Shown here: in pieces, positions 1 to 18,973 of the stretch
Layout: each line of letters opens with the position of its first letter
Numbering within the stretch: the first letter of the stretch is position 1
Source: a virus
Length of the DNA stretch: 64,000 bases
IMG/VR virus record: IMGVR_UViG_3300009314_000004
Location: 81,297-145,296 of that record
Reading direction: 5' to 3' (one strand)
Made by a program: the position numbers and the translations under genes
The notes under the pieces: model-generated
What the model saw: the letters and a program-made list of their open reading frames with translations, nothing else
The model's database searches: none
Told to the model about the DNA's origin: nothing

Positions 1-493
1 TGAAGTGCGACACCACCAGCAAGGGGCACCCCAATAACCGACGCAGAACCGAAAGGTCCCGATTAATGTCGTTGACGTCCAAGAACCTCCGGTGTATCCC
101 CCCAACCAACGGGGGCGCCCCCCCGTTGCCCCCTACTAAATGATCGCCGTCCCAGCTCATTTGGTACTTGTCCAGCACCTGCTCCTTGACACACCACCGG
201 TGCAGCACGTACCGTCCCAGTTCGGCCTGCCGGAAGGTGCTGATTTCCACTACCGCCACAGCCAATTTGGGAACGGGGACGGGCTCCTGGGGATGCTGCA
301 AGATGAGATCCCGCAACTCGCAGGGAATCCTAACCTCGCCGACGACGTAGCCGACGAGTTGGGCTGCCTCACCCGAAGTGTGGGTCAGACCGTACAGGTC
401 AGCGAAGCTATGCAATTTAGTTGGGCGGGGGAAACCCTCCCCTCCCCAAGCTAAGGGGGTGGCCACCCGGCAACTGCCAATGACCCCAATCAT
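1..493 (-). CDS. GSCFA/WcbI-like protein, partial
   Basis: The reading frame starts at ATG 493 and runs off the left edge (about 164 codons visible). Its N-terminus, MIGVIGSCRVATPLA, has the hydrophobic strand plus GSCR turn of GSCFA/SGNH-like proteins common in polysaccharide clusters, and YGLTHTSGEAAQ follows about 25 residues later. That family is generally associated with acyl transfer or esterase-type chemistry on glycans; this is inferred. The start overlaps the stop of the upstream methyltransferase by four bases (ATGA), so the two are translationally coupled. It is the last visible gene of the biosynthetic operon. The family call is moderate because the C-terminal half is missing. Confidence 0.5.
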   Translation of the reverse strand, partial: MIGVIGSCRVATPLAWGGEGFPRPTKLHSFADLYGLTHTSGEAAQLVGYVVGEVRIPCELRDLILQHPQEPVPVPKLAVAVVEISTFRQAELGRYVLHRWCVKEQVLDKYQMSWDGDHLVGGNGGAPPLVGGIHRRFLDVNDINRDLSVLRRLLGCPLLVVSHF

Positions 494-1500
494 GGTTTGT
501 CCCCACTAAGTTGCACCGACAAGGGGGAAAGCAAAGTACCTTCCGGATACAACGCAGCAACCGAGTCAGGGACAGCAACATGATTGGTCGTTGTCATCGC
601 CACATTGGCCAAGCCGACATCCCGGAACAACCTCTCCCATTCGTGCGCCCGCAACCGATTCTGTGGGTAACCTACGCAATTGTCCCCCACTGCTCGGCGA
701 TAGTCTTCTTCCGACCAGGTCAAGAAATCCAGCGGCCCTTCGCCTAAACCGTGCCCGTCGATACCGATAGTTGCCAAGAGCAGCGCTCCCGGACGAAGTA
801 AGTCGTACATACGTTGCACGCAAGCAGCTGGATTAGGGACGTGCTCCAACGTCACTACGGAATACACCAAGTCAAAACACGACTCCCCCGGAAAGTCCTC
901 TACTCGAGTAGCGTAACGAACGCACCCCAAAGCAGGCGATAGGTCGGGAACATCAACAAAACGAGTAAGTAGGGAAACCAACGCTTGCAAATTCGTCTGG
1001 GGGCCCTCGTCTAACGTGGCCCCACTGAAAACGGCCCCCCGCATACCGCACGCAAGCAATTGCCCGTGATGGTCCGGGCCGAACCCCATCTCGAACACGT
1101 CTCGAGGGTCGTGGCCCCGCAACTTTCGGTACCACCTGAATTGCTGAGCTACCCCCGCCATATTGTGGAGCGGGCTCCCGCTGGTGTCCGCCCCTCGCAG
1201 TACCGTTCGGGCAACAAGGCCCTCCACTGCTGCAATATCAGCGTACCACCCCCGAGCCTGGGCAACTCGCCGTACCAGGAAACGCCCCACACAGGGAGTG
1301 CACTCAAGAGGGGTACCCTTATCTGTTAGAACCACCGGAATTACTCGGTAAGTGCCTAACAATTCCTGCAAACTACGGGGGACCGCCGCCCACTCCTCTA
1401 CACTGGTGAGGAAGAGGGTACCGCCATAGGTCCGCTCGAACCACTGAGTGAACTGGTCCAACCCACAAGCCCCTGTTACACACTCTATAGGCGTATCCAT
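490..1500 (-). CDS. SAM-dependent methyltransferase (class I)
   Basis: A 336-residue protein with a class I methyltransferase core in its second half. FDLVYSVVTLEHVPNP is the motif IV-like strand, followed by LLRPGALLLATIGIDGHGLG and a C-terminal NRLRAHEWERLFRDVG helix typical of methyltransferases in surface-glycan clusters. The N-terminal 150 residues are family-specific; the MGFGPDHHGQLLACGM stretch is the likely SAM loop. It resembles the methyltransferase at 3071-4060 in the same operon (DGHG/LSGHG, FLT, HE(R)W-like features), so the two are probably ancient paralogs acting on related substrates. AGGAG lies about 10 bases before the ATG. Substrate unknown. Confidence 0.75.
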   Translation of the reverse strand: MDTPIECVTGACGLDQFTQWFERTYGGTLFLTSVEEWAAVPRSLQELLGTYRVIPVVLTDKGTPLECTPCVGRFLVRRVAQARGWYADIAAVEGLVARTVLRGADTSGSPLHNMAGVAQQFRWYRKLRGHDPRDVFEMGFGPDHHGQLLACGMRGAVFSGATLDEGPQTNLQALVSLLTRFVDVPDLSPALGCVRYATRVEDFPGESCFDLVYSVVTLEHVPNPAACVQRMYDLLRPGALLLATIGIDGHGLGEGPLDFLTWSEEDYRRAVGDNCVGYPQNRLRAHEWERLFRDVGLANVAMTTTNHVAVPDSVAALYPEGTLLSPLSVQLSGDKP

Positions 1501-1514
1501 CAGCCAAAAATCTC

Positions 1515-2126
1515 CTAATCGACCAACGTGTGCAGATAGGCAGCTCCTGACTCTCCGTACCTGGCCGAGTAGGGCCCGCCTGCCTGCTCCCAGGCAATAA
1601 CCTCAGCAGGGTCTGCAATCAAGTCAGCAACCGACTTCAGCCCTCGCGAAGCAAAGCCAAACAGGGGGTCGAAAAACACGTAGCCCCCCTTCAGTAAAAA
1701 CTCCACAACTGTGTGCTGCACTCCTGCCGCATTTGCAATGTGGACGTAGCGGGAAAAATACCCGATAGTTGCCCCCAGGTAACGCAGAGCCAAACAGTAC
1801 CCGGCACATGCGGCGACGTCCTCCCCCCGGAACAGCTTAGCCAGGTCGAAATGCTGATGCCAGTCGTCCTCCGGAATGCCAAGCTTAATGTTGTGCCGCA
1901 CGTACCCCATGATAAAGGCAAGGAAGGCGTATTGCGCTGAAGGCACCCACAAGTTATGCACTAGATTGTACACCGCCCCCCAAGGCTGACCTACCAGGTC
2001 GACCCCATAGTTGAACATACACCGGTCCATGTGCGTGCGTGCGCAAGCCAAATTGCGCCGAGCGAGCCTTACCCGAGGTTCTCCCACAACTTGTAGTACT
2101 CCGCATTGATAAAGTGGTGCGTCCAT
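1515..2126 (-). CDS. transglutaminase-like cysteine protease/transferase
   Basis: A 203-residue protein with an apparent Cys-His-Asp triad in transglutaminase order: Cys111 in ACAGYCLAL, His138 in GVQHTVVEF and Asp153 in YVFFDPLFG. The fold family includes bacterial transglutaminase-like peptidases and the lasso-peptide leader protease (McjB type). The start chosen is ATG 2126, preceded by GGGGGGAGTGGCA, an excellent ribosome site; this overlaps the end of the radical SAM gene by 58 bases. A GTG at 2153 would add nine residues. With a Cys-less asparagine-synthetase-like enzyme and a radical SAM enzyme next to it, a role in modifying a peptide or amino-sugar product is possible. Substrate unknown. 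Confidence 0.6.
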   Translation of the reverse strand: MDAPLYQCGVLQVVGEPRVRLARRNLACARTHMDRCMFNYGVDLVGQPWGAVYNLVHNLWVPSAQYAFLAFIMGYVRHNIKLGIPEDDWHQHFDLAKLFRGEDVAACAGYCLALRYLGATIGYFSRYVHIANAAGVQHTVVEFLLKGGYVFFDPLFGFASRGLKSVADLIADPAEVIAWEQAGGPYSARYGESGAAYLHTLVD

Positions 2127-3061
2127 TGCCACTCCCCCCTGGCAGCGTAGCACCGGTCACACTTGGCGCTCCTAGTATCGAAACGGTACCGTCCCTGCTT
2201 GACGATTTCCTCCCAGCTGCTCTCAGTCACGTTACCAATCGAGGCGTCGTACCTGTTGCAGCAGGGAAAAACATCCCCAGTGGGGCGCACGTACATGTAC
2301 TTCGGGAAGGAACACCCAGGCACAGCCCACACAGGGGAGGCGCCATACTCACCCCCAATCCCGTGGACTGCCCCGAAGGAGATGCCGTGGCCTTCGCAGT
2401 AAGCCTGGGTTTCTTCCAAGCATTGCTGGTACTCCTCGCGTAACCCGTACAGGCTCTCTCCGACCATCTCCTCAGTGCAGACATGCAACGTGTTGAGGAA
2501 AATCCACCGAATCCCCGGCAGCAACCGCAACAAGGGGATCACGTCCCCCATATTGCGGGCCGTAGCCATGTAGGAAAGCCCAACGTAGTTCCACCTACTC
2601 AGTGTGCTAATAGCCTCTCGGACGTTCTCCAAGACTACGTCGAACTTAGCCCCGGTACGCAGCCGCTCAAAGTTGTCCTTGAGCCCGTCCATTGAAAAGG
2701 ACAACGAGTAGGTGTTGCGATTCAACAACGGCCACAGTTCCTGAGCTGGGAAGCGCCACATCCCGTTGGTGTTCAACTTCAAGGCAAACTTCCCATTCAT
2801 ATTGAGGTAGTCCAGCATCTTCAAGAAGTCGGGGTGGGTAGTGTGCTCCCCCTCCGAATTGATCTCGATGGTCCGATAAGGCGGGAGCTGGTCAATCAGC
2901 GCCTGCCACACGGCAAAGGGCATCCACTCGAGCTTTTTTTTCTCCTTGGTGTGCTGAGACCCGCACATGCGGCAAGTGAGGTTGCACCCGGTAGTTAGCA
3001 CAACATTAACGGCCTCTTGCGCCAATTGCTCGGTGCGCAACATGTGCGGGTACTCGGCCAT
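2069..3061 (-). CDS. radical SAM enzyme with SPASM-type C-terminus
   Basis: A 330-residue protein. The radical SAM cluster motif CNLTCRMC (Cys26, Cys30, Cys33) sits in strand 1. The C-terminal quarter has further cysteines arranged like a SPASM/twitch domain: CSFPKY, VFPCCNRY and KCDRCY, which would hold auxiliary iron-sulphur clusters. Such enzymes do radical chemistry on peptides, sugars or cofactors in the cytoplasm. GAGGGG precedes ATG 3061. It lies between a methyltransferase and a transglutaminase-like gene in one operon. The family is clear; the substrate is not. Confidence 0.85.
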   Translation of the reverse strand: MAEYPHMLRTEQLAQEAVNVVLTTGCNLTCRMCGSQHTKEKKKLEWMPFAVWQALIDQLPPYRTIEINSEGEHTTHPDFLKMLDYLNMNGKFALKLNTNGMWRFPAQELWPLLNRNTYSLSFSMDGLKDNFERLRTGAKFDVVLENVREAISTLSRWNYVGLSYMATARNMGDVIPLLRLLPGIRWIFLNTLHVCTEEMVGESLYGLREEYQQCLEETQAYCEGHGISFGAVHGIGGEYGASPVWAVPGCSFPKYMYVRPTGDVFPCCNRYDASIGNVTESSWEEIVKQGRYRFDTRSAKCDRCYAARGEWQWTHHFINAEYYKLWENLG

Positions 3062-3070
3062 TTCGCCCCT

Positions 3071-4060
3071 CTACACAGAACCGTAGGTGATCAGCTCGGT
3101 TACGTCGGCGTCCTCCCCCGTTACCTGGGAGTTCTCCGGGAGCTCGGTACGGTTCCGCACCTCGAACTCGACCTGCATTCCGGCCTGCTTCACTTGTGCC
3201 ACGTACCAAGGCGCCCGCTCCCGGCGGCAGGGGAGGTACCCATGATGGTCCAAGTAGCCAACTTGCGCAGCCTCCCACTCTTCCTGCGTCATGGTCAAGA
3301 AGTGAAGCGGGTGCGGATCTCCGGAAATGCCATGACCGGACAAATCGGTGTAAGCAATGAACTGCCCACCCTTCTTGAGCAACCTCCGCACTTCACCCAG
3401 GAAGCCTTGCATGTTTTCCACGTGCTCCAGGACTACGTGCGCAAAGATGAGATCGTACTTCTTCCGCCGCAAGGGGAACTTCCCCCCTTCGCCCAAACGG
3501 TAGTCCCGAGCAACTCGCCGCTCGGCCTTCTCTATGAAAGAGGCAAGGTTGAGCTTGGCCAGTACCTCCCGCTCCACCTCACGGAGCTCAGGATCGACCT
3601 CCCTCACCGCGGTGACGCCGGCGTACTCCGCCCCCCACATGTTGCAAGCGAGCATTGACCCTACCGGGCTATCGCCGAAACCAAGCTCGAGAACGGTTTT
3701 GGGCAGTTTCCCCATCTTCGCCTCGTAAAGGTCCATATAGAAATTGAGGATGCCTAAGCTGTGAATCATGTTCGGCTGCGCATCGAAAAGGGCCGCCGTG
3801 ATGTCTCGAAAGCCCCGGTTGACCTTACGACTGTGCACAGTGAGCAGGTTCCGAGCGGCGGACCACAACGAATCGAAATTGTCAAGTGCTTCGGGGTCGG
3901 TGCTGGGCAGCAAGAAGGCTACCCCGTAGCGTTCCCCCAACAGGGTGGCCAGGGGCCCAGGCTCCTCAGTGACTGCGATGCAGGTGGTGCCTGCTCGCTT
4001 TTGCGTCATCTCAGCGAGAACCTCGGGGAGGTACTCAGGCATGTTGACTTTGATAACCAT
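3071..4060 (-). CDS. SAM-dependent methyltransferase (class I)
   Basis: A 329-residue protein. VLELGFGDSPVGSMLAC is the SAM-binding glycine loop (motif I), KYDLIFAHVVLEHVEN is motif IV, and LLKKGGQFIAYTDLSGHG follows. The start is ATG 4060, preceded by AAAGGAGAAAGAC, so the gene overlaps the 3' end of the upstream glycosyltransferase by 55 bases in another frame. It shares the VLEHV...GHG...FLT arrangement with the methyltransferase at 490-1500. Likely an O- or N-methyltransferase of the cluster's product; the substrate cannot be told from sequence. Confidence 0.78.
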   Translation of the reverse strand: MVIKVNMPEYLPEVLAEMTQKRAGTTCIAVTEEPGPLATLLGERYGVAFLLPSTDPEALDNFDSLWSAARNLLTVHSRKVNRGFRDITAALFDAQPNMIHSLGILNFYMDLYEAKMGKLPKTVLELGFGDSPVGSMLACNMWGAEYAGVTAVREVDPELREVEREVLAKLNLASFIEKAERRVARDYRLGEGGKFPLRRKKYDLIFAHVVLEHVENMQGFLGEVRRLLKKGGQFIAYTDLSGHGISGDPHPLHFLTMTQEEWEAAQVGYLDHHGYLPCRRERAPWYVAQVKQAGMQVEFEVRNRTELPENSQVTGEDADVTELITYGSV

Positions 4061-5130
4061 GTCTTTCTCCTTTTCGATTGGCACACGCTGCGAAGACAAG
4101 CGAGGAGAGCTTCTGCTGCCCCCATCGGGTCCACCTTACGATAGCGCAGCTGCTGCTTCTCAGCGAGTGCATGGGTGATTGCTGCTGCAAACGTCTCAAT
4201 TGACAAATCCGGGCAACACAACGGGGGAGGGTGCTTATCTATGTTCCCCACATTGGTTGAGACTACTACGTTGCACCCCAACTTGGCCGCCTCGGCGTAC
4301 AAATTGGGGGAAGGGTCGTACATGGAAGGGATGACTACTACTCGCGAGTTGCCCAAAAGCGTCAACATGGTAGCGTGGTCGACCAACCCGAAGTCAATGA
4401 CGTTGGGCAAGGGCAGGTTCAGCCGGTCACCGCATACGGCGATGCGCACTTGAGGAAACCGCCGAGCGACCGCCTCCAGCAGCCCCCGGTTTTTCATCCT
4501 CCGCCCCCAATCCGAGGCGGAGAAGCACAAACCGAACTGACGCTCCCGGTAGGGGCGGGCCCATTCACTGTTGATGGGAGGCACAGCAATATCCGGAGTG
4601 TAAATAACCGAGTCCCGGTGGATCTTGGCTACCAACTTCGCCGGGAAATATTTACGGTAGTAGGCCAAATCGATGGTGCTGTGAACAAGTACGTGGTCGG
4701 CACTCCCAAACGCTACGAAGTCGTTGTTGCCCTCAGGCGGGGGCTCCTGGACTTGGTGGTAGGGCTTGCCTGAGCGCGAGATGAAGTCTACTCCCGACGT
4801 CAGGTACACTTTGGGTACGTCGGTGCGTTTCCGCAGCACCCAAGGCGCATCGTAGTTCTTCCCTACCATCACATCGAAATCACCCGCAAGAAGGGCTGGG
4901 TCATCCCGTTGGCACCACCCTGTAGCCCGAATTCCCCCGATCCGGTCGGGGTCGCTCCAGTTGCCGGTGATGTCGTAAGGAAGGCCCAGATGCCGGCATT
5001 TGCCGCAGTGGTCAATAGCTACCCCCAGCACCCCGCACCCCAATTGCCGCAAACGCTTCACTGTCTCGTACGCCTCAGTAGAGGCGCCCCCGTAACCAGG
5101 CGGTTGGTTCCACACATAGCAAATCCGCAT
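4006..5130 (-). CDS. glycosyltransferase, GT-B fold (GT4-like)
   Basis: A 374-residue protein. The N-terminal Rossmann half opens with MRICYVWNQPPGYGGAS, where the Gly-rich loop is typical of GT4 transferases. The C-terminal half has VVIPSMYDPSPNLYAEAAKLGCNVV, matching the donor-binding E-x7-E region. Cytoplasmic transfer of an activated sugar is expected. The start ATG at 5130 shares one base with the stop of the asparagine-synthetase-like gene (TGATG), giving tight coupling. A start nine codons further upstream is possible but lacks support. Confidence 0.8.
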   Translation of the reverse strand: MRICYVWNQPPGYGGASTEAYETVKRLRQLGCGVLGVAIDHCGKCRHLGLPYDITGNWSDPDRIGGIRATGWCQRDDPALLAGDFDVMVGKNYDAPWVLRKRTDVPKVYLTSGVDFISRSGKPYHQVQEPPPEGNNDFVAFGSADHVLVHSTIDLAYYRKYFPAKLVAKIHRDSVIYTPDIAVPPINSEWARPYRERQFGLCFSASDWGRRMKNRGLLEAVARRFPQVRIAVCGDRLNLPLPNVIDFGLVDHATMLTLLGNSRVVVIPSMYDPSPNLYAEAAKLGCNVVVSTNVGNIDKHPPPLCCPDLSIETFAAAITHALAEKQQLRYRKVDPMGAAEALLACLRSVCQSKRRKTWLSKSTCLSTSPRFSLR

Positions 5131-6857
5131 CAGTCGATAAACTCCCGAAACCATAACTCCAGCGAAACCAACTTGTACAGCTGACGGTCGAATTCCCCCC
5201 GTCTCAATTTAGTGTGCACGTTAGGGTCGTGCGGGAGGCGCCTGCGCAAGCCTCGAACCAACTCGTCCGCCCACTCCGTAAGTGGCCCCTGAAGCCAACG
5301 AGTGGCCGGCACCACCAACCCTTTTTTGTCCGCCCGCTCCGTGACTGAGGAGGGGACCCCGATTCGCCGACCAACCTCGCGCAGAATCCACTTAGTCTGC
5401 CCCTCAACCAACTTCAAGTGCGGGACAGAGAAACAGAACTGCATGACGTTGGGGTCCAAGTAGGGGCAGAACGCCTCCAGCCCAAATGCGGTGGCGTCGC
5501 TCGCGCCCATGTGCATCTGCGCGGGGTAGGTAAGGTTAAACTCTACGTTGCCGAGTGAATTGGGGAGCTGCGGGAACTCATTGAAGTACCTAGTCACCTG
5601 CTCTCGCTGCTCCCGTCCACTAGTAGGGGAACGATCCGTAACTCGGAGGTGCTGCTCCAGCGGCGACGCTTCAGCCAACTCTGGAGTTGCCCATAAGTAC
5701 TCAGCCAACGGCCGGTAGGCATGGCAAGAAGTGGCACCAAGGAACTGCTCCGTCAAGTCCCCCTCACCCGCATGCTGCGCCCCGTACATGATAAGCAAAT
5801 GCCGAATGTACCCACTGAGGAGCTCATCCGGCCCATGGCCAAAAACGCAGGAAGAGAAGCCCAACTCCTGCGTCTTCTTTGCCATCATGAAATTGGAGAT
5901 AGGGGAGAAAGTGGCAACGATGCCCTCAAGGTTCCGAATGATTTCCGGGAAGTACTTCCTGAAATCATCTGCCGTGGGGCGGACGTAGTGAACTCCGGCC
6001 CCAATGGAGGCAGCCACCGCAAGGGCGTACTCAAGCTCGTCGAAGGCATCCCCGTACCCTTCGTAGGTGTTGACAATGACCTGTTCTGGGCGCATCAGCG
6101 CAGCCAAGACCGCCGAGTCCAGTCCCCCTGAAACGGTGAAGCCCTGGTTGTCCCGGCGGCAAGTCTCCGCCGACTGGCGCAGCAACTGCTCAAAAGCAAC
6201 CACACTTTGCGTGGGGGAGCCCTGCACAAGGGGGACACGCGGGTGCCAGTACCGGATAGCCGCCGGCGTCGTTGACCCCCAAGCGAAGTGAACAATGTGC
6301 TGCGCGGGGACCTGGTGGATACCTTCAAACATCGTTGCAGCAGCAACGGGGAATTCGAAAGTCCATAAATCCTGGGTAATATGGGGAACGGCGGGCACCA
6401 AAGTCAACAAGGAGCTAATCTTGTTGGCAAAGAGCACACCTCCCTTCTTGTCGACATGGTAATAGAGAACACTGCCCCACGCTGGGTCAACTGCCAACCA
6501 CAGCCCTTCGAAGGTTTGCACTACCAGGGCGAACAACCCACGCAACGCAGACACCGTCAGGTACACCCCCATTCCTTCAACCAACGCCCGCACTACTTCT
6601 GCGTCGCCGGCCCCCTTCTTGTGAGGAACGTGGGTGGCAATAAGGGCTTCCCGATTTTGTAAATAGCCGGAGAAGAAAACAGTAGCGTCGCCCAGGGACA
6701 AGGGCCCGCTGGAAACAGTGGGGGGGAGCGTAGCGGCCAAGGCCATCTCCGTACCCTCCTCATAAAGGAGCGGGGCCCCTCTTCCATACCGGTGACGACA
6801 AACCGACACCATCGCCCGAGGGTCACCCTCCCGACGATATACTCCGGCGTAAATCAC
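5130..6857 (-). CDS. asparagine-synthetase-like ATP-dependent amide ligase lacking N-terminal Cys
   Basis: A 575-residue protein in two parts. Residues 1-200 look like a class II glutamine amidotransferase domain, but the catalytic Cys at position 2 is absent (the chain begins MIYAGVYRREG). The synthetase half carries the PP-loop SGGLDSAV near residue 243 and GHGPDELLSGY further on, both hallmarks of AMP-forming asparagine-synthetase-like ligases. Loss of the Cys is typical of family members that use another amine, such as beta-lactam and lasso-peptide synthetases. GTG 6857 has GGGAGGA four bases before it; an alternative TTG at 6878 adds seven residues. The upstream glycosyltransferase overlaps its start. 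Confidence 0.75.
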   Translation of the reverse strand: MIYAGVYRREGDPRAMVSVCRHRYGRGAPLLYEEGTEMALAATLPPTVSSGPLSLGDATVFFSGYLQNREALIATHVPHKKGAGDAEVVRALVEGMGVYLTVSALRGLFALVVQTFEGLWLAVDPAWGSVLYYHVDKKGGVLFANKISSLLTLVPAVPHITQDLWTFEFPVAAATMFEGIHQVPAQHIVHFAWGSTTPAAIRYWHPRVPLVQGSPTQSVVAFEQLLRQSAETCRRDNQGFTVSGGLDSAVLAALMRPEQVIVNTYEGYGDAFDELEYALAVAASIGAGVHYVRPTADDFRKYFPEIIRNLEGIVATFSPISNFMMAKKTQELGFSSCVFGHGPDELLSGYIRHLLIMYGAQHAGEGDLTEQFLGATSCHAYRPLAEYLWATPELAEASPLEQHLRVTDRSPTSGREQREQVTRYFNEFPQLPNSLGNVEFNLTYPAQMHMGASDATAFGLEAFCPYLDPNVMQFCFSVPHLKLVEGQTKWILREVGRRIGVPSSVTERADKKGLVVPATRWLQGPLTEWADELVRGLRRRLPHDPNVHTKLRRGEFDRQLYKLVSLELWFREFID

Positions 6858-8088
6858 AAATCCTCCCAATGCGCTCAACGAGGCCGTGGAACCGGCTGGC
6901 CCAACTCCAGGACCGCTGCATTACTTCGCGGTTTTTCCGTCCCCACTTCCGGTGCAGGGCAGCGCACGCCTTGAATGTCTCCAAGGCCTCGACAATGCCC
7001 GCCACTGAATCCTCCAAAATGAGCACGCCCCCCTGGGAGCAGGCGTGGATCTCCGGGACTAAACCTACGGGAGTTGAAATGTAAGGCAGCCCCGAAGCCG
7101 CCCCCTCCATGATCGGGTTGGGGGTTCCTTCGCTGGTGGAAACACAGACAATGGCTGAAAGTCCTCGGTACCACTCAGGCATGGCTACGTAGGGAATCCT
7201 CTTTCGCGCGATGTCGGCGACGACTAGCTCCACCCCTGAAACTTGCGCTGCCGCCTCCTCTAATTTCTGTAAGTTCTTTACTCCTCGCGCCACTTTGGAG
7301 TTCCCTGCCCAACCAACCCGAAGAACGGGAGACTTCAGCCGATTAACTGAAGGGGTAAACATTCGTGCATCTACCCCATCAGACATGTACTCAATAGGCC
7401 GCCCCAACACCTCGCGCAATTCCTCCACCAGCAGCTGACTTGCCCCCGTGATGATGTCCGCCCGCTCAACTGCTGTGTCGAACTCAGTTCGGTGCCGCTT
7501 CCACAGATAATGGCTGTACACGCAAAGGACCAAAACGGCCTCTTTTGGGAGCAGGGGAAGGACGTTGCTTGCTGCCCGCCAACGGATTAACGTAACTACC
7601 TCGTACCCCCGCAAATCCGGAATTGCCGCCGACGGCACTATTTCCACATGCCATGAAGGGGGAAAGTTAGCCGCCATATGACGAGCAATATTGTGGAAGA
7701 CCTCTTCCGGCCTATGATAAACCAGTAGGGCCCTCCCCGTAGTACCCAAGCTCAGGGGGAGTGCCGAGAGTTCGCTCAGAGTAACTTCGACATCCGCAGC
7801 TGCCCGAGGTCTACCAGAACTTGTGTCCAAGGGCTTTTTCTGGGCCACTGCTGCTCCACCTGCAACGAACGGGGAGGGGGGGCTGCGCTTAACAACCCCC
7901 CCATGCCGTACCGGTGTCTTCGCTTCACAAGGGGAGGGGCCCCCCCGATGATTGGGCGAAACCAATGGGCGGCCCCCAGGCCCCCTCACAAGTACAGGGC
8001 CTTTCTTAGAGGGGCGACGTTTCCCCCTCTTTTTTGCCCGCTCCCCTACGAGTGTCCTAGTAATTTTCACGTTGTCGGACCGGGCCAT
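6823..8088 (-). CDS. glycosyltransferase (GT4-like) with basic N-terminal extension
   Basis: A 421-residue protein. The first 80 or so residues are Arg/Lys/Pro/Gly rich and low in complexity (KKRGKRRPSKKGPV), unlike any glycosyltransferase core. The rest has GT-B features: VLRVGWAGNSKVARGVKN starts the second Rossmann domain and VSTSEGTPNPIMEGAASGLP is the donor-site E-x7-E region. GGGGGAG sits two bases before ATG 8088. It is the first gene of the eight-gene cluster and lies behind a TTGCGC-N17-TAAAAC promoter candidate. The basic N-terminus could bind nucleic acid or the virion; this is inference. Confidence 0.75.
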   Translation of the reverse strand: MARSDNVKITRTLVGERAKKRGKRRPSKKGPVLVRGPGGRPLVSPNHRGGPSPCEAKTPVRHGGVVKRSPPSPFVAGGAAVAQKKPLDTSSGRPRAAADVEVTLSELSALPLSLGTTGRALLVYHRPEEVFHNIARHMAANFPPSWHVEIVPSAAIPDLRGYEVVTLIRWRAASNVLPLLPKEAVLVLCVYSHYLWKRHRTEFDTAVERADIITGASQLLVEELREVLGRPIEYMSDGVDARMFTPSVNRLKSPVLRVGWAGNSKVARGVKNLQKLEEAAAQVSGVELVVADIARKRIPYVAMPEWYRGLSAIVCVSTSEGTPNPIMEGAASGLPYISTPVGLVPEIHACSQGGVLILEDSVAGIVEALETFKACAALHRKWGRKNREVMQRSWSWASRFHGLVERIGRICDLRRSISSGG

Positions 8089-8108
8089 GACTCCCCCAAT
8101 TCATTTAA

Positions 8109-8137
8109 GTTTTACACTATTACTCCCCCGTGCGCAA
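8109..8137 (-). promoter_or_regulatory. candidate promoter of the biosynthetic operon
   Basis: On the minus strand TTGCGC (8132-8137) and TAAAAC (8109-8114) are spaced by 17 bases, upstream of ATG 8088. It sits back to back with a plus-strand promoter in the 138-base divergent gap. Confidence 0.4.
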
Positions 8138-8166
8138 CTCAAAACTTTCGCCCCATCTGCTATAAG
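8138..8166 (+). promoter_or_regulatory. TATAAG-class promoter
   Basis: CTCAAA (8138-8143), 17 bases, then TATAAG (8161-8166). It belongs to a repeated set at the head of plus-strand modules (22038, 37929, 39381, 54219). The first gene downstream starts at 8227. Confidence 0.5.
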
Positions 8167-8226
8167 AGAAATGGGAGGAGGGAATTGCCCTCACTCCCAA
8201 AATAGGCTATTTTTATGGAGGGTTAA

Positions 8227-8784: not shown

Positions 8785-8880
8785 GATTCAGAGCCAATCA
8801 CCAACCTCACCGCAGACAACGCCAAGCCTGGGCAAGGTGCTCGTGTGGAGGAGTTGCTGCTTGCTTACTGGAGGGTGCCT

Positions 8881-9903
8881 ATGGCAAGCCGGAACATGGA
8901 GCTGTCTCAAAAGCAACTGCGTGAGCTGAACCGAGCCAAGGCTGGGGACTTCTCGGCTTACGACAAAGTCATCATCGCTTTTAGCGGTGGGAAGGACTCC
9001 CAAGCCAGCACGATGAAGTTGCTGGACCTCGGGTGCCCGCCAGAGCAAATGTACCTGTGGCACCACGACGTGGAGGGCGGGGCCACCCCCTTCTTTGATT
9101 GGCCCTGCACGTCCGACTACTGCTGCGCCGCCGCTGAGCAGCTGGAAATCGACCTCTACTTCTCGTGGAAGGAAGGGGGCTTTCGCAGGGAGCTACTACG
9201 AGACAATGAGCCCACTGCCCCCACCTCTTTGGAGTTGGTTGGGGGCGGCATCGCCCGCACAGGCGGGAAGGGCCCCAAGGGCACCAGGCGACGGTTCCCG
9301 GCCATCGCTGCCGACCTGACCCGGCGCTGGTGCTCAGCCTACCTCAAAATCGACGTGGGCGACAAAATCTTCGCCAACGACCCAACCTTCGCACGGGGGT
9401 TCTTCCTGTTCGTCACCGGAGAGAGGCGAGAGGAATCCCCTGGTCGGGCCAAGTACTTGGAAGCGGAAAACGATCGGGCCTCCACCAGGAAGCGAATCAT
9501 CACTCACTGGCGGCCGGTCATCGACTTTCCTGAGAAGCAAGTGTGGGACACCATCAAGAACTATGGGGTCAACCCCCATCCGGCGTACCACCTGGGCTTC
9601 GGCCGGCTGTCTTGCGCTGCCTGCATCTTCGGCAACCCAGACCAGTGGGCCACCGTACGGGAACTCTTCCCGGAACAGTTTGCTGAAATTGCCGAGTACG
9701 AAGTGGCATTGCGGCATACACTGCGCGACGGGACGACCCTTCCCGAACTCGCTGATAGGGGAACCAGCTACCTCAGGTGGCTCCCCCACTCGGCAGCCTG
9801 GGCCATAGAAGCCGGGCGCAGTCACCAGTACAATCACCCCATCACTACGGACCCATGGGAATGCCCAACGGGCGCCTTCAAGAAGGGCGGAGGACCAACA
9901 TAA
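8881..9903 (+). CDS. PAPS-reductase/CysH-family PP-loop protein
   Basis: A 340-residue protein. VIIAFSGGKDSQAS at residues 31-44 is the PP-loop that binds and splits ATP. Later RRWCSAYLKI, VTGERREESPGRAKY and SCAACIFGNPDQW match the phage branch of the phosphoadenosine phosphosulfate reductase superfamily (also related to DndC). Phage members have no settled role; nucleotide or tRNA thiolation and sulphur transfer have been proposed. ATG 8881 has GGAGGG five bases upstream, preferred over GTG 8845. The stop TAA shares a base with the next ATG (TAATG). Superfamily assignment is firm; function is not. Confidence 0.8.
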   Translation: MASRNMELSQKQLRELNRAKAGDFSAYDKVIIAFSGGKDSQASTMKLLDLGCPPEQMYLWHHDVEGGATPFFDWPCTSDYCCAAAEQLEIDLYFSWKEGGFRRELLRDNEPTAPTSLELVGGGIARTGGKGPKGTRRRFPAIAADLTRRWCSAYLKIDVGDKIFANDPTFARGFFLFVTGERREESPGRAKYLEAENDRASTRKRIITHWRPVIDFPEKQVWDTIKNYGVNPHPAYHLGFGRLSCAACIFGNPDQWATVRELFPEQFAEIAEYEVALRHTLRDGTTLPELADRGTSYLRWLPHSAAWAIEAGRSHQYNHPITTDPWECPTGAFKKGGGPT

Positions 9904-18151: not shown

Positions 18152-18210
18152 GTCACCCTCCAGGCACCCATTGTAGCACCCCGTACCGGTCCCGGCAAGC
18201 CCACTTGTAG

Positions 18211-18297
18211 TGGGAAGGGGAGGATTCGAACCCCCGTGTTTACCCGTTCGGGACCTGGTCTACAGCCAGGCGCCATCAACCACTCGGCCACCTTCCC
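18211..18297 (-). tRNA. tRNA-Tyr (GTA)
   Basis: Full cloverleaf read on the minus strand: acceptor GGGAAGG/CCTTCCC, anticodon stem CCTGG/CCAGG with loop CTGTAGA, a long class II variable arm and T-loop TTCGAAT. Discriminator A. CCA is not encoded. Confidence 0.92.
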
Positions 18298-18301
18298 ATG
18301 G

Positions 18302-18385
18302 TACGGGAGGGGGGACTCGAACCCCCACGAGCTTGCGCCCACTAGATCCTGAATCTAGCGCATCTGCCAGTTACGCCACTCCCGC
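18302..18385 (-). tRNA. tRNA-Leu (CAG)
   Basis: Acceptor GCGGGAG/CTCCCGT, anticodon arm CTAGA-TTCAGGA-TCTAG, long variable arm, T-loop TTCGAGT. Discriminator A followed by an encoded CCA. Reads CUG. Confidence 0.92.
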
Positions 18386-18389
18386 ATGG

Positions 18390-18473
18390 TACCGAGGGGG
18401 AGACTCGAACTCCCACGAGCTTTCGCCCACAGCGCCCTCAACGCTGCGCATCTGCCAATTACGCCACCTCGGT
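18390..18473 (-). tRNA. tRNA-Leu (GAG)
   Basis: Acceptor ACCGAGG/CCTCGGT, anticodon arm CAGCG-TTGAGGG-CGCTG, long variable arm, T-loop TTCGAGT, encoded CCA. Reads CUC/CUU. Confidence 0.92.
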
Positions 18474-18490
18474 ATCCTCTCAAAGAACAG

Positions 18491-18574
18491 TGCTCGGGGT
18501 GGGGGTCGAACCCACGTGGGCTTGCGCCCCAGGGATTTTAAGTCCCCTGCCTGAGCCAGCTCGGCAACCCGAGC
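18491..18574 (-). tRNA. tRNA-Leu (TAA)
   Basis: Acceptor GCTCGGG/CCCGAGC, anticodon arm GGGGA-CTTAAAA-TCCCT, long variable arm, T-loop TTCGACC. No encoded CCA. Reads UUA/UUG. Confidence 0.92.
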
Positions 18575-18578
18575 GCAG

Positions 18579-18662
18579 TACCGGGGGCGGGAATCGAACC
18601 CGCACGACCTTGCGGCCACCGACTTTTGAGGCCGGCGCATCTGCCAGTTACGCCACCCCGGC
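18579..18662 (-). tRNA. tRNA-Leu (CAA)
   Basis: Acceptor GCCGGGG/CCCCGGT, anticodon arm CCGGC-CTCAAAA-GTCGG, long variable arm, T-loop TTCGATT. No encoded CCA. Reads UUG. Confidence 0.92.
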
Positions 18663-18744
18663 AAAGCAACGATTGGAGCGGGGACCCTCCCCCTGTCTCC
18701 CAACTCGTTGAGAACGCACGTATCAAAGAAACAACCCAACCGCT

Positions 18745-18788
18745 GCGGGGATCTTCGGTCCCCGCTCTACCAGCTGAGCTACCTGAGC
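18745..18788 (-). pseudogene. 5' half of a tRNA-Phe (GAA)
   Basis: Acceptor 5' strand GCTCAGG, D-arm GCTCAGCTGGTAGAGC and an anticodon hairpin GCGGGGA-CCGAAGA-TCCCCGC (anticodon GAA) are intact. No T-arm (no TTCRA) or matching CCTGAGC acceptor strand follows before the next tRNA. It is a truncated gene, not an intron-bearing one as far as can be seen. Confidence 0.7.
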
Positions 18789-18815
18789 AACAGCTGCAAA
18801 TGATTTCCTGAAAAG

Positions 18816-18898
18816 TCGGGGCGACAGGATTCGAACCTGCGTATGCCTCTCGGCCCGGGCCCCAAACCCGGTGGGTAACCAGCCTACCCTACACCCCG
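18816..18898 (-). tRNA. tRNA-Pro (TGG), long variable arm
   Basis: Acceptor CGGGGTG/CGCCCCG with C1-G72 and A73 as in proline tRNAs, anticodon arm CCGGG-TTTGGGG-CCCGG, T-loop TTCGAAT. The variable region is 14 bases with a GCC/GGC mini-stem, where about five bases are usual. Confidence 0.88.
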
Positions 18899-18899
18899 G

Positions 18900-18973
18900 T
18901 CGCCGCAACTGGAATTGAACCAGCGGCCTCTTCCTTATCAGGGAAGTGCTCTAACCTGCTGAGCTATGCGGCG
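18900..18973 (-). tRNA. tRNA-Ile (GAT)
   Basis: Acceptor CGCCGCA/TGCGGCG, D-arm GCTCAGCAGGTTAGAGC, anticodon arm CTTCC-CTGATAA-GGAAG, T-loop TTCAATT. 74 bases, no encoded CCA. First gene of the minus-strand tRNA array. Confidence 0.92.

Follow-up and report, generated by a model that had tools for sequence, protein, structure and literature searches.

What might a phage build with an asparagine synthetase B (AsnB)-like ligase, a radical SAM enzyme and a set of sugar enzymes encoded beside its terminase gene? The question is raised by the first 8.1 kb of a 64,000-base stretch (the window; bases 81297-145296) of the 145,296-base IMG/VR virus record IMGVR_UViG_3300009314_000004. An original prediction, made from the letters alone, had described there a single-promoter cluster of eight genes that included an AsnB-like ligase without the catalytic Cys2 and a transglutaminase-like protein, with lasso peptides as a possible parallel and a phage-made, sugar-based hypermodified surface molecule as the broader reading. 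Our analysis supports the broader reading, for which the dehydrogenase, the QueC-like gene and the gene company of relatives elsewhere speak. The genes belong to an 11-gene cluster that we judge, with slightly better than even confidence, to make, in the cytosol, a modified glycan that contains uronic acid. On the best reading of the sequence comparisons, the product would be a methylated, amide-bearing uronate glycan located on the virion or the host surface. The dehydrogenase score, the profile of the ligase, which resembles exopolysaccharide (EPS) amidotransferases, and the glycan loci that hold QueC-like relatives all point to a glycan, and the cluster combines at least one glycosyltransferase with a sugar-nucleotide enzyme in one unit, the combination by which a surface-glycan cluster is recognized.

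An 11-gene cluster beside the terminase gene

As predicted, the eight minus-strand open reading frames (ORFs) in the first 8.1 kb overlap or are separated by no more than 14 bases, and Pfam supports the two glycosyltransferases (the second slightly under the cut-off), the two methyltransferases and the radical SAM enzyme (Table 1). The set of eight is, however, incomplete in the window: the cluster extends 3.6 kb beyond the left edge, all in one direction, to a total of 11 genes immediately upstream of the terminase gene, in the leftward order GSCFA/TviD-like gene, 79-codon ORF, nucleotide-sugar dehydrogenase, ATP-grasp/QueC-like fusion and terminase. This gene content and order are read directly from the record. 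The single promoter was not borne out, as a sigma-70-type scan gave no minus-strand site in 8089-8226; the region between the cluster and the terminase gene holds a promoter-like site (10/12 match with an extended -10), the scan having returned 4 sites overall against 3.2 expected by chance. The cluster proteins searched have 100% identical copies in contigs of two other metagenome ids, one of these copies being identical in DNA across 3,000 bases, and the gene set is therefore real and more than chance. In each of the six cluster genes scored, all of them also part of the training set, codon use favored the called frame.

The AsnB-like ligase

The prediction that the ligase lacks the N-terminal catalytic Cys2 held at both plausible starts: from the TTG at 6878 the protein begins MSALGGFVIYAGVY (MSALGGF...), and from the GTG at 6857, which stands behind GGGAGGA, it begins M-IYAGVYRREG, with no Cys at position 2 in either form. 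The PP-loop ATP site SGGxDS is intact as SGGLDS. An ordinary AsnB whose Cys is recovered from another start had been named beforehand as the result that would speak against the idea; neither plausible start restores the residue, and the nearest profiles are those of AsnB and EPS amidotransferases, although at scores below their curated cut-offs. Among NCBIfam models, TIGR01536 (asparagine synthase) gave 143.8 bits against a cut-off of 267.1, and TIGR03108 (XrtA/EPS amidotransferase) and the lasso cyclase model NF033535 gave 81.4 and 42.1 bits, respectively, both below their cut-offs. The phage ligase shares the ATP site and the C-terminal motifs with the EPS and O-antigen amidotransferases (TIGR03108, TIGR01536) but differs from them in the absence of the glutaminase Cys2.

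Two motifs, GxGxDELxxGY and RxDKKGxxxPxxxWL, are common to the phage ligase and EPS-type AsnB with small changes. Four probable lasso cyclases (L114, L120, L122 and L123) are without Cys2 and also without both motifs; they are the AsnB-like ones among six PP-loop ORFs in 12 regions around PF13471 (Transglut_core3) genes, the other two being NAD synthase-like by eye and left out. In the phylogenetic tree, the four formed a clade (100/99) that excluded the phage ligase, whose branch is long; forcing the ligase into this clade costs 2.5 log units (P value of the approximately unbiased test [p-AU], 0.295), so that the joining is not rejected. From this tree, the second one built, L032 (long branch) and L044 (a near-duplicate of L042) were left out. 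Because asparagine-synthase models score best and the two AsnB motifs are kept, the ligase is, by these comparisons, not a recognizable lasso cyclase, although the tree test does not reject a lasso affinity.

At E 0.001, the sole PDB match of the ligase was beta-lactam synthetase (1jgt; 8.2e-9), an enzyme with the AsnB fold and a non-functional glutaminase part that forms an amide from an internal amine by means of a catalytic Tyr/Glu dyad. AsnB relatives without a working glutaminase, including beta-lactam synthetase and the lasso cyclases, use an amine in place of glutamine-derived ammonia to form amides, and on this basis we infer a similar chemistry for the phage ligase. The phage loop GHGPDEL is close to that of a Cys2-bearing phage AsnB (L029; GHGGDEL). 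The His of GHGPDEL was considered as a special catalytic base and dropped, since the Cys-bearing protein has it as well.

Relatives and gene company elsewhere

A phage collection of 50,697 records was queried with the ligase, the transglutaminase-like protein, the fusion, methyltransferase 1, the radical SAM enzyme and the dehydrogenase. The dehydrogenase matched 32 records at 1e-20, the radical SAM enzyme 8 at 1e-3 (every one below 30% identity) and the ligase a single one at 1e-5 (LT985590.1); there was no relative of methyltransferase 1 at 1e-4 and no match to the fusion or the transglutaminase-like protein at 0.01, the last two being without matches in the plasmid collection as well. LT985590.1 ("Bacteriophage sp."; L016) was rejected as a phage precedent, for it holds an ordinary AsnB starting MCG among bacterial-looking housekeeping genes, as judged by eye. 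By the same labels, this phage-labelled record resembles a piece of a bacterial chromosome.

When viral_contigs was scanned for close relatives of the ligase, the radical SAM enzyme, the transglutaminase-like protein and the fusion, only copies of the same phage were confirmed, and an AsnB profile scan gave 11 loci, 2 of the present phage and 9 others. Among the others, Cys follows Met in all eight readable N-termini (six MCG, one MCA and one MCC), that of L132 being unreadable. Four of the nine genes (L130, L133, L134 and L135; Table 1) are no more than 5 kb away from terminase, portal or capsid genes, a count made without a control for other accessory genes; in L127, AsnB is ∼7 kb from a portal gene, and in L128 the single neighbor tested against PHROGs gave no match. 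By Pfam, the neighbors include a methyltransferase and a glycosyltransferase (L133), a methyltransferase (L135 and L131) and a glycosyltransferase (L129), with no match for the neighbors tested in L128, L130 and L134. Phage AsnB genes, often next to structural genes, represent an arrangement of a known sort; what is odd in the present cluster is the loss of the Cys and the presence of the extra enzymes.

In bacteria, 297 genomes sampled from the phylum to which the L032 genome belongs included 6 with ligase matches at E<=1e-20; all six start MCG, and two (L043 and L045) stand in polysaccharide loci, by eye. Three of four bacterial loci with QueC-like relatives lie among glycosyltransferase or EPS genes, namely, in Tetragenococcus (L031), a Proteobacteria metagenome-assembled genome (MAG; L032) and an Oscillospiraceae MAG (L033), and the fourth is in an Oceanobacillus prophage (L030), all contexts being assigned by eye; another relative occurs in an isolate-derived viral_contigs record (L020). 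At 246 to 277 amino acids, the relatives in L020, L030, L031 and L032 leave no room for the ATP-grasp part. The L032 locus also has a Cys-less AsnB-like gene, located ∼2.3 kb from the QueC-like gene. As a separate observation, the stand-alone QueC-like proteins with WTGGWDSTFR in L020 (5241-5981) and L030 (9932-10729) are found in prophage-like tail regions, and an M14-peptidase-like gene adjoins the QueC-like gene in both (labels by eye).

The transglutaminase-like protein

The predicted Cys/His/Asp pattern stood, at C107/H138/D153 of the 203-amino-acid form (codons at about 1808-1806, 1715-1713 and 1670-1668), where it occurs once and in order. It arose in 398 of 100,000 shuffles, and among the 431 six-frame ORFs of at least 100 amino acids in the stretches analyzed only one other carries it, the glycosyltransferase ORF at 4006-5154. 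The family assignment itself proved less firm. When 22 queries (this protein plus 21 window proteins chosen by length) were compared by hhalign with a home-made Transglut_core profile (29 of 30 PF01841 loci), the protein ranked first, with His and Asp aligned, but at a probability of 25%; against a Transglut_core3 profile of the lasso B2 type (the 12 best-scoring single-domain loci returned of 30 PF13471 loci), it ranked 11th of 22. Pfam PF01841 itself gave no match up to E 10, and the single Pfam match was to Peptidase_C58, sub-threshold at E 0.016-0.017. We regard the protein as likely, but not proven, to be transglutaminase-like, and its identification as a lasso B2 protein is not supported by these profiles.

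A DNA pattern of the His-Asp stretch met four stretches in viral_contigs, i.e., two copies of the phage, L049 (transglutaminase-like by eye) and one antisense to a long ORF. There was no PDB relative. With single-sequence queries, which are insensitive, genome_contigs gave 24 stretches and 0 relatives, 4 genomes gave one chance-level match and 395 genomes of one phylum gave none.

Other proteins of the cluster

The radical SAM enzyme carries CxxxCxxC at residues 26 to 33, and methyltransferase 2 is a paralogue of methyltransferase 1 (27% identity over 219 columns; E 1e-15). The call of a GSCFA-like protein proved weak: it has a GSC motif at residue 6 and no Pfam match, and in NCBIfam the Vi-polysaccharide protein TviD is matched in part (23 bits; E 1.8e-5). 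In the fusion, the QueC match covers the last 50 residues and is preceded by the PP-loop motif WTGGWDSTFR. The start sites of glycosyltransferase 1 and the fusion are uncertain, because codon scores are weak in their basic tails: the Lys/Arg-rich tail of the former has 16 K+R and 3 D+E in the first 60 residues, and that of the latter 15 K+R and 1 D+E. Since the first 110 codons of glycosyltransferase 1 score weakly, its true start may be further in. The 11 cluster proteins show no convincing transmembrane segment, the top 19-residue hydropathy values being 1.99, in the dehydrogenase at its Rossmann N-terminus, and 1.67, within the ligase.

The left flank had been proposed as the place to seek a precursor peptide. 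A coupled ORF of 79 amino acids is indeed there, overlapping the stop of the GSCFA/TviD-like gene as TGATG, and its called frame is the best of six, though with a codon score of only 0.093, a weak support in comparison with 0.195 to 0.347 in five of the six cluster genes scored and 0.085 in glycosyltransferase 1. It has no Cys and no YxxPxL, the leader motif of lasso precursors; in the 14.5 kb around the cluster, this motif was found in 1 of 184 ORFs of 20 to 90 amino acids, which lies antisense inside the fusion gene.

Table 1. Genes of the cluster and viral AsnB genes located within 5 kb of structural or terminase genes
Feature	Position	Strand	Support
Group-1 glycosyltransferase 1, 421 amino acids	6823..8088	-	Pfam PF13692 1.9e-9, PF00534 5.7e-8
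AsnB-like ligase without Cys2	5130..6857 (GTG) or 5130..6878 (TTG)	-	Pfam Asn_synthase 2.9e-36, GATase_7 5.7e-7
Group-1 glycosyltransferase 2, divergent, 382 amino acids	4006..5154	-	Pfam PF13692 6.7e-6, 26.9 bits vs cut-off 27
Class-I SAM methyltransferase 1	3071..4066 (or upstream TTG 4099)	-	Pfam Methyltransf_11 2.1e-10
Radical SAM/SPASM enzyme	2069..3061	-	Pfam Radical_SAM 8.9e-10, SPASM 1.4e-8
Likely transglutaminase-like protein, 203-amino-acid form	1515..2126 (or 2153)	-	C107/H138/D153 motif test, hhalign
Class-I SAM methyltransferase 2	490..1500	-	Pfam Methyltransf_11 1.6e-6
GSCFA/TviD-like protein (weak assignment), 243 amino acids	2..493, runs left of window (record 81058-81789)	-	Partial NCBIfam TviD match
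Nucleotide-sugar dehydrogenase	record 79487-80818	-	Nucleotide-sugar dehydrogenase subfamily 430 bits vs cut-off 189.8
ATP-grasp/QueC-like fusion, 601 amino acids	record 77671-79476	-	RimK 17.9 bits, sub-threshold; QueC 31 bits, over cut-off
Viral AsnB, L130	523-2040		
Viral AsnB, L133	7974-9335		
Viral AsnB, L134	3009-4568		
Viral AsnB, L135	4855-6420		

Phage identity and neighboring genes

Past the fusion, the terminase had tblastn matches in 17 phage records, a terminase-family PHROG match of 9.4e-41 (in a batch of 46 left-half proteins) and a Pfam GpA_ATPase score of 24.5 bits, slightly below the cut-off of 25.6; minus-strand genes continue beyond it. DNA polymerase, UvsX-like, DnaB-like, baseplate-wedge and GroEL families were also among the PHROGs listed for this batch (25 of 44). 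Given the terminase, baseplate-wedge and replication families in the record, the virus is a tailed phage. The GroEL homologue is encoded in the left half of the record (phrog_5725; E 7e-94). On the other side, a divergent gene for a PAPS-reductase/DndC-like PP-loop protein (window 8845-9903, plus strand; phrog_424, E 1.7e-35) adjoins the cluster, and seven clustered tRNA genes, four of them for tRNA-Leu, are located at window 18210-18973 on the minus strand.

A proposed pathway for a uronate glycan

In the pathway that we propose, the nucleotide-sugar dehydrogenase would supply a UDP-uronate, most likely UDP-glucuronate, and the two GT-B glycosyltransferases would build up a short glycan. The Cys-less AsnB-like ligase would adenylate a carboxylate, plausibly that of the uronate, for attack by an amine other than glutamine-derived ammonia, and the ATP-grasp/QueC-like fusion would activate a second carboxylate. 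The two methyltransferases, the GSCFA/TviD-like protein and the radical SAM enzyme could then trim the product, with a possible role for the transglutaminase-like protein in amide transfer or cleavage. The host would have to supply activated sugar and export, since the Pfam matches of the cluster include no epimerase, nucleotidyltransferase, flippase or polymerase; the absence of convincing transmembrane segments suggests either export via the host or a cytosolic target such as virion proteins. The finished glycan would probably be shown on the virion or the host envelope.

A bolder version holds that three ATP-dependent carboxylate activators (the Cys-less AsnB-like ligase, the ATP-grasp part and the QueC-like PP-loop part), together with the radical SAM enzyme, make a uronate glycan with amide or nitrile groups, which the transglutaminase-like enzyme fixes to the particle. 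We consider this a long shot; if true, a phage-particle glycan made by three activators would be a kind of virion glycan not described in the open-licence literature searched.

Several points weigh against the uronate glycan pathway. An epimerase/dehydratase set like that of the complete cyanophage clusters, a sugar nucleotidyltransferase, a flippase and a polymerase are all missing from the Pfam matches of the cluster. The transglutaminase and GSCFA assignments are weak, and the substrate of the dehydrogenase is a guess, its score against the UDP-glucose-specific TuaD model being 465, below the cut-off of 700. AlphaFold models of the ligase (2 relatives in the alignment) and of the transglutaminase-like protein alone were unusable, with pLDDT values of 33.8 and 41.4, respectively. 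Moreover, the Cys-less AsnB-like protein of L032 is a poor precedent for the phage ligase, having no exact PP-loop and neither the GxGxDELxxGY nor the RxDKKGxxxPxxxWL motif. Finally, neither CxxxCxxC nor the transglutaminase motif was present in the ORFs picked beside the nine other viral AsnB genes (non-overlapping, at least 80 amino acids, longest first), a selection in which genes behind longer antisense ORFs may hide and some flanks are short.

Alternative explanations

The cluster might modify the host envelope alone, as a means of superinfection exclusion, with no virion link and with its place beside the terminase gene being an insertion hot spot. This is possible, although we think it rather less likely than not to hold. 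It agrees with the usual reading of phage lipopolysaccharide (LPS) clusters (PMC7824862), and the promoter-like site between cluster and terminase, at the near-chance frequency given above, would divide the two into separate units; the cluster nevertheless runs on the same strand as the terminase and later genes, and the proximity of AsnB to terminase, portal or capsid genes in four of nine other viral contigs, a figure lacking an accessory-gene control, also speaks for a tie to the particle. Hypermodification of the phage DNA, with UDP-uronate, glycosyltransferases and amide ligases serving to decorate a modified base, seems unlikely. Its model would be Bacillus phage SP-15, whose DNA bears glucuronate and in which a dehydrogenase, a UTP-glucose-1-P uridylyltransferase and two glycosyltransferases form one region, and the cluster enzymes appear to be all soluble. 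The SP-15 UDP-glucose dehydrogenase, which stands beside glycosyltransferases, is 42% identical to that of the present phage, but no AsnB, radical SAM, transglutaminase or QueC-like gene is annotated in the 16 kb of SP-15 viewed. The odds are lowered because PF00303 (thymidylate synthase/hydroxymethylase) had no match in the record at E<=1, a search that detected 9 of 14 controls. Nor was a base-hypermodification family found among the 21 Pfam families matched by 55 of the 116 called window ORFs or among the PHROGs listed (25 of 29), and the QueC-like relatives point instead to glycans in three of four loci.

A lasso-like or other ribosomally synthesized and post-translationally modified peptide (RiPP), for which the ligase would close an isopeptide ring, the transglutaminase-like protein would cut the leader and the 79-amino-acid ORF would encode the precursor, is similarly unlikely, and so are its further steps, with modification by the radical SAM enzyme and methyltransferases and glycosylation by the glycosyltransferases. 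SPASM proteins often act on peptides, Cys2 is absent from the ligase and the four probable lasso cyclases alike, their grouping is not rejected by the tree test, and the 79-amino-acid ORF is coupled to its upstream gene in the best, if poorly scoring, codon frame. However, neither PF13471 (lasso B2) nor PF05402 (PqqD, the B1 protein or RiPP recognition element) had a match at E<=10 anywhere in the 145,296 bases of the record; at this limit, 7 of 14 controls were detected for the former (1 over the cut-off) and 14 of 14 for the latter (3 over the cut-off). In addition, the transglutaminase-like protein ranks in the middle of the queries against the core3 profile and resembles core rather than core3, the ligase keeps both AsnB motifs, the candidate precursor is without Cys and YxxPxL, no transporter is among the Pfam matches of the cluster, and the sugar dehydrogenase is left unexplained. 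We therefore rejected membership in the lasso family, the hint given by the original prediction, on the grounds of no core3, no PqqD and the retained AsnB motifs, and keep it as a low-probability rival. The likeness to the lasso C and B2 system is confined to a Cys-less AsnB homologue near a transglutaminase-like protein. A free, diffusing small metabolite, an amino-sugar or glycopeptide acting on rivals or on host signalling, appears very unlikely: the beta-lactam synthetase match of the ligase and the sugar/amino-acid metabolite cluster proposed for cyanophage (PMC7824862) are in its favor, but the cluster Pfam matches include no exporter or resistance family, and no relative of the whole set was found.

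Comparison with described phage clusters and significance

Clusters that combine glycosyltransferases with sugar enzymes are already known from phages, and it is the present mix of enzymes that is unusual. The closest are the "LPS" clusters of the cyanophage P-SSM2 type and the 10-gene sugar/amino-acid cluster of S-SSM6a (PMC7824862), which resemble the present cluster in their glycosyltransferases, sugar-nucleotide enzymes and methyltransferases, have been proposed to decorate surface polysaccharides or to make a metabolite, and differ in having epimerases, kinases and nucleotidyltransferases, or carbamoyltransferases and a halogenase. In the main text of that paper, the terms "asparagine synth", "transglutaminase", "radical SAM" and "QueC" were searched for and not found. 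Asparagine synthase has also been listed among the auxiliary genes of viruses from groundwater and rumen, in passages of PMC10980836 and PMC10465536 that treat it as amino-acid metabolism and mention no comparable cluster. In the open-licence literature searched, including passages of PMC10980836, PMC10465536, PMC5067487, PMC3448643 and PMC7824862, no account of the arrangement seen here was found.

For phage biology, the cluster indicates that the pairing of a ligase with a transglutaminase in a phage does not on its own signify a lasso peptide. The placement of AsnB at most 5 kb from terminase, portal or capsid genes is a pattern open to survey in many genomes. If the uronate glycan pathway is right, phage sugar chemistry would gain glutaminase-less amide ligases, a transglutaminase-like enzyme and an ATP-grasp/QueC-like fusion.

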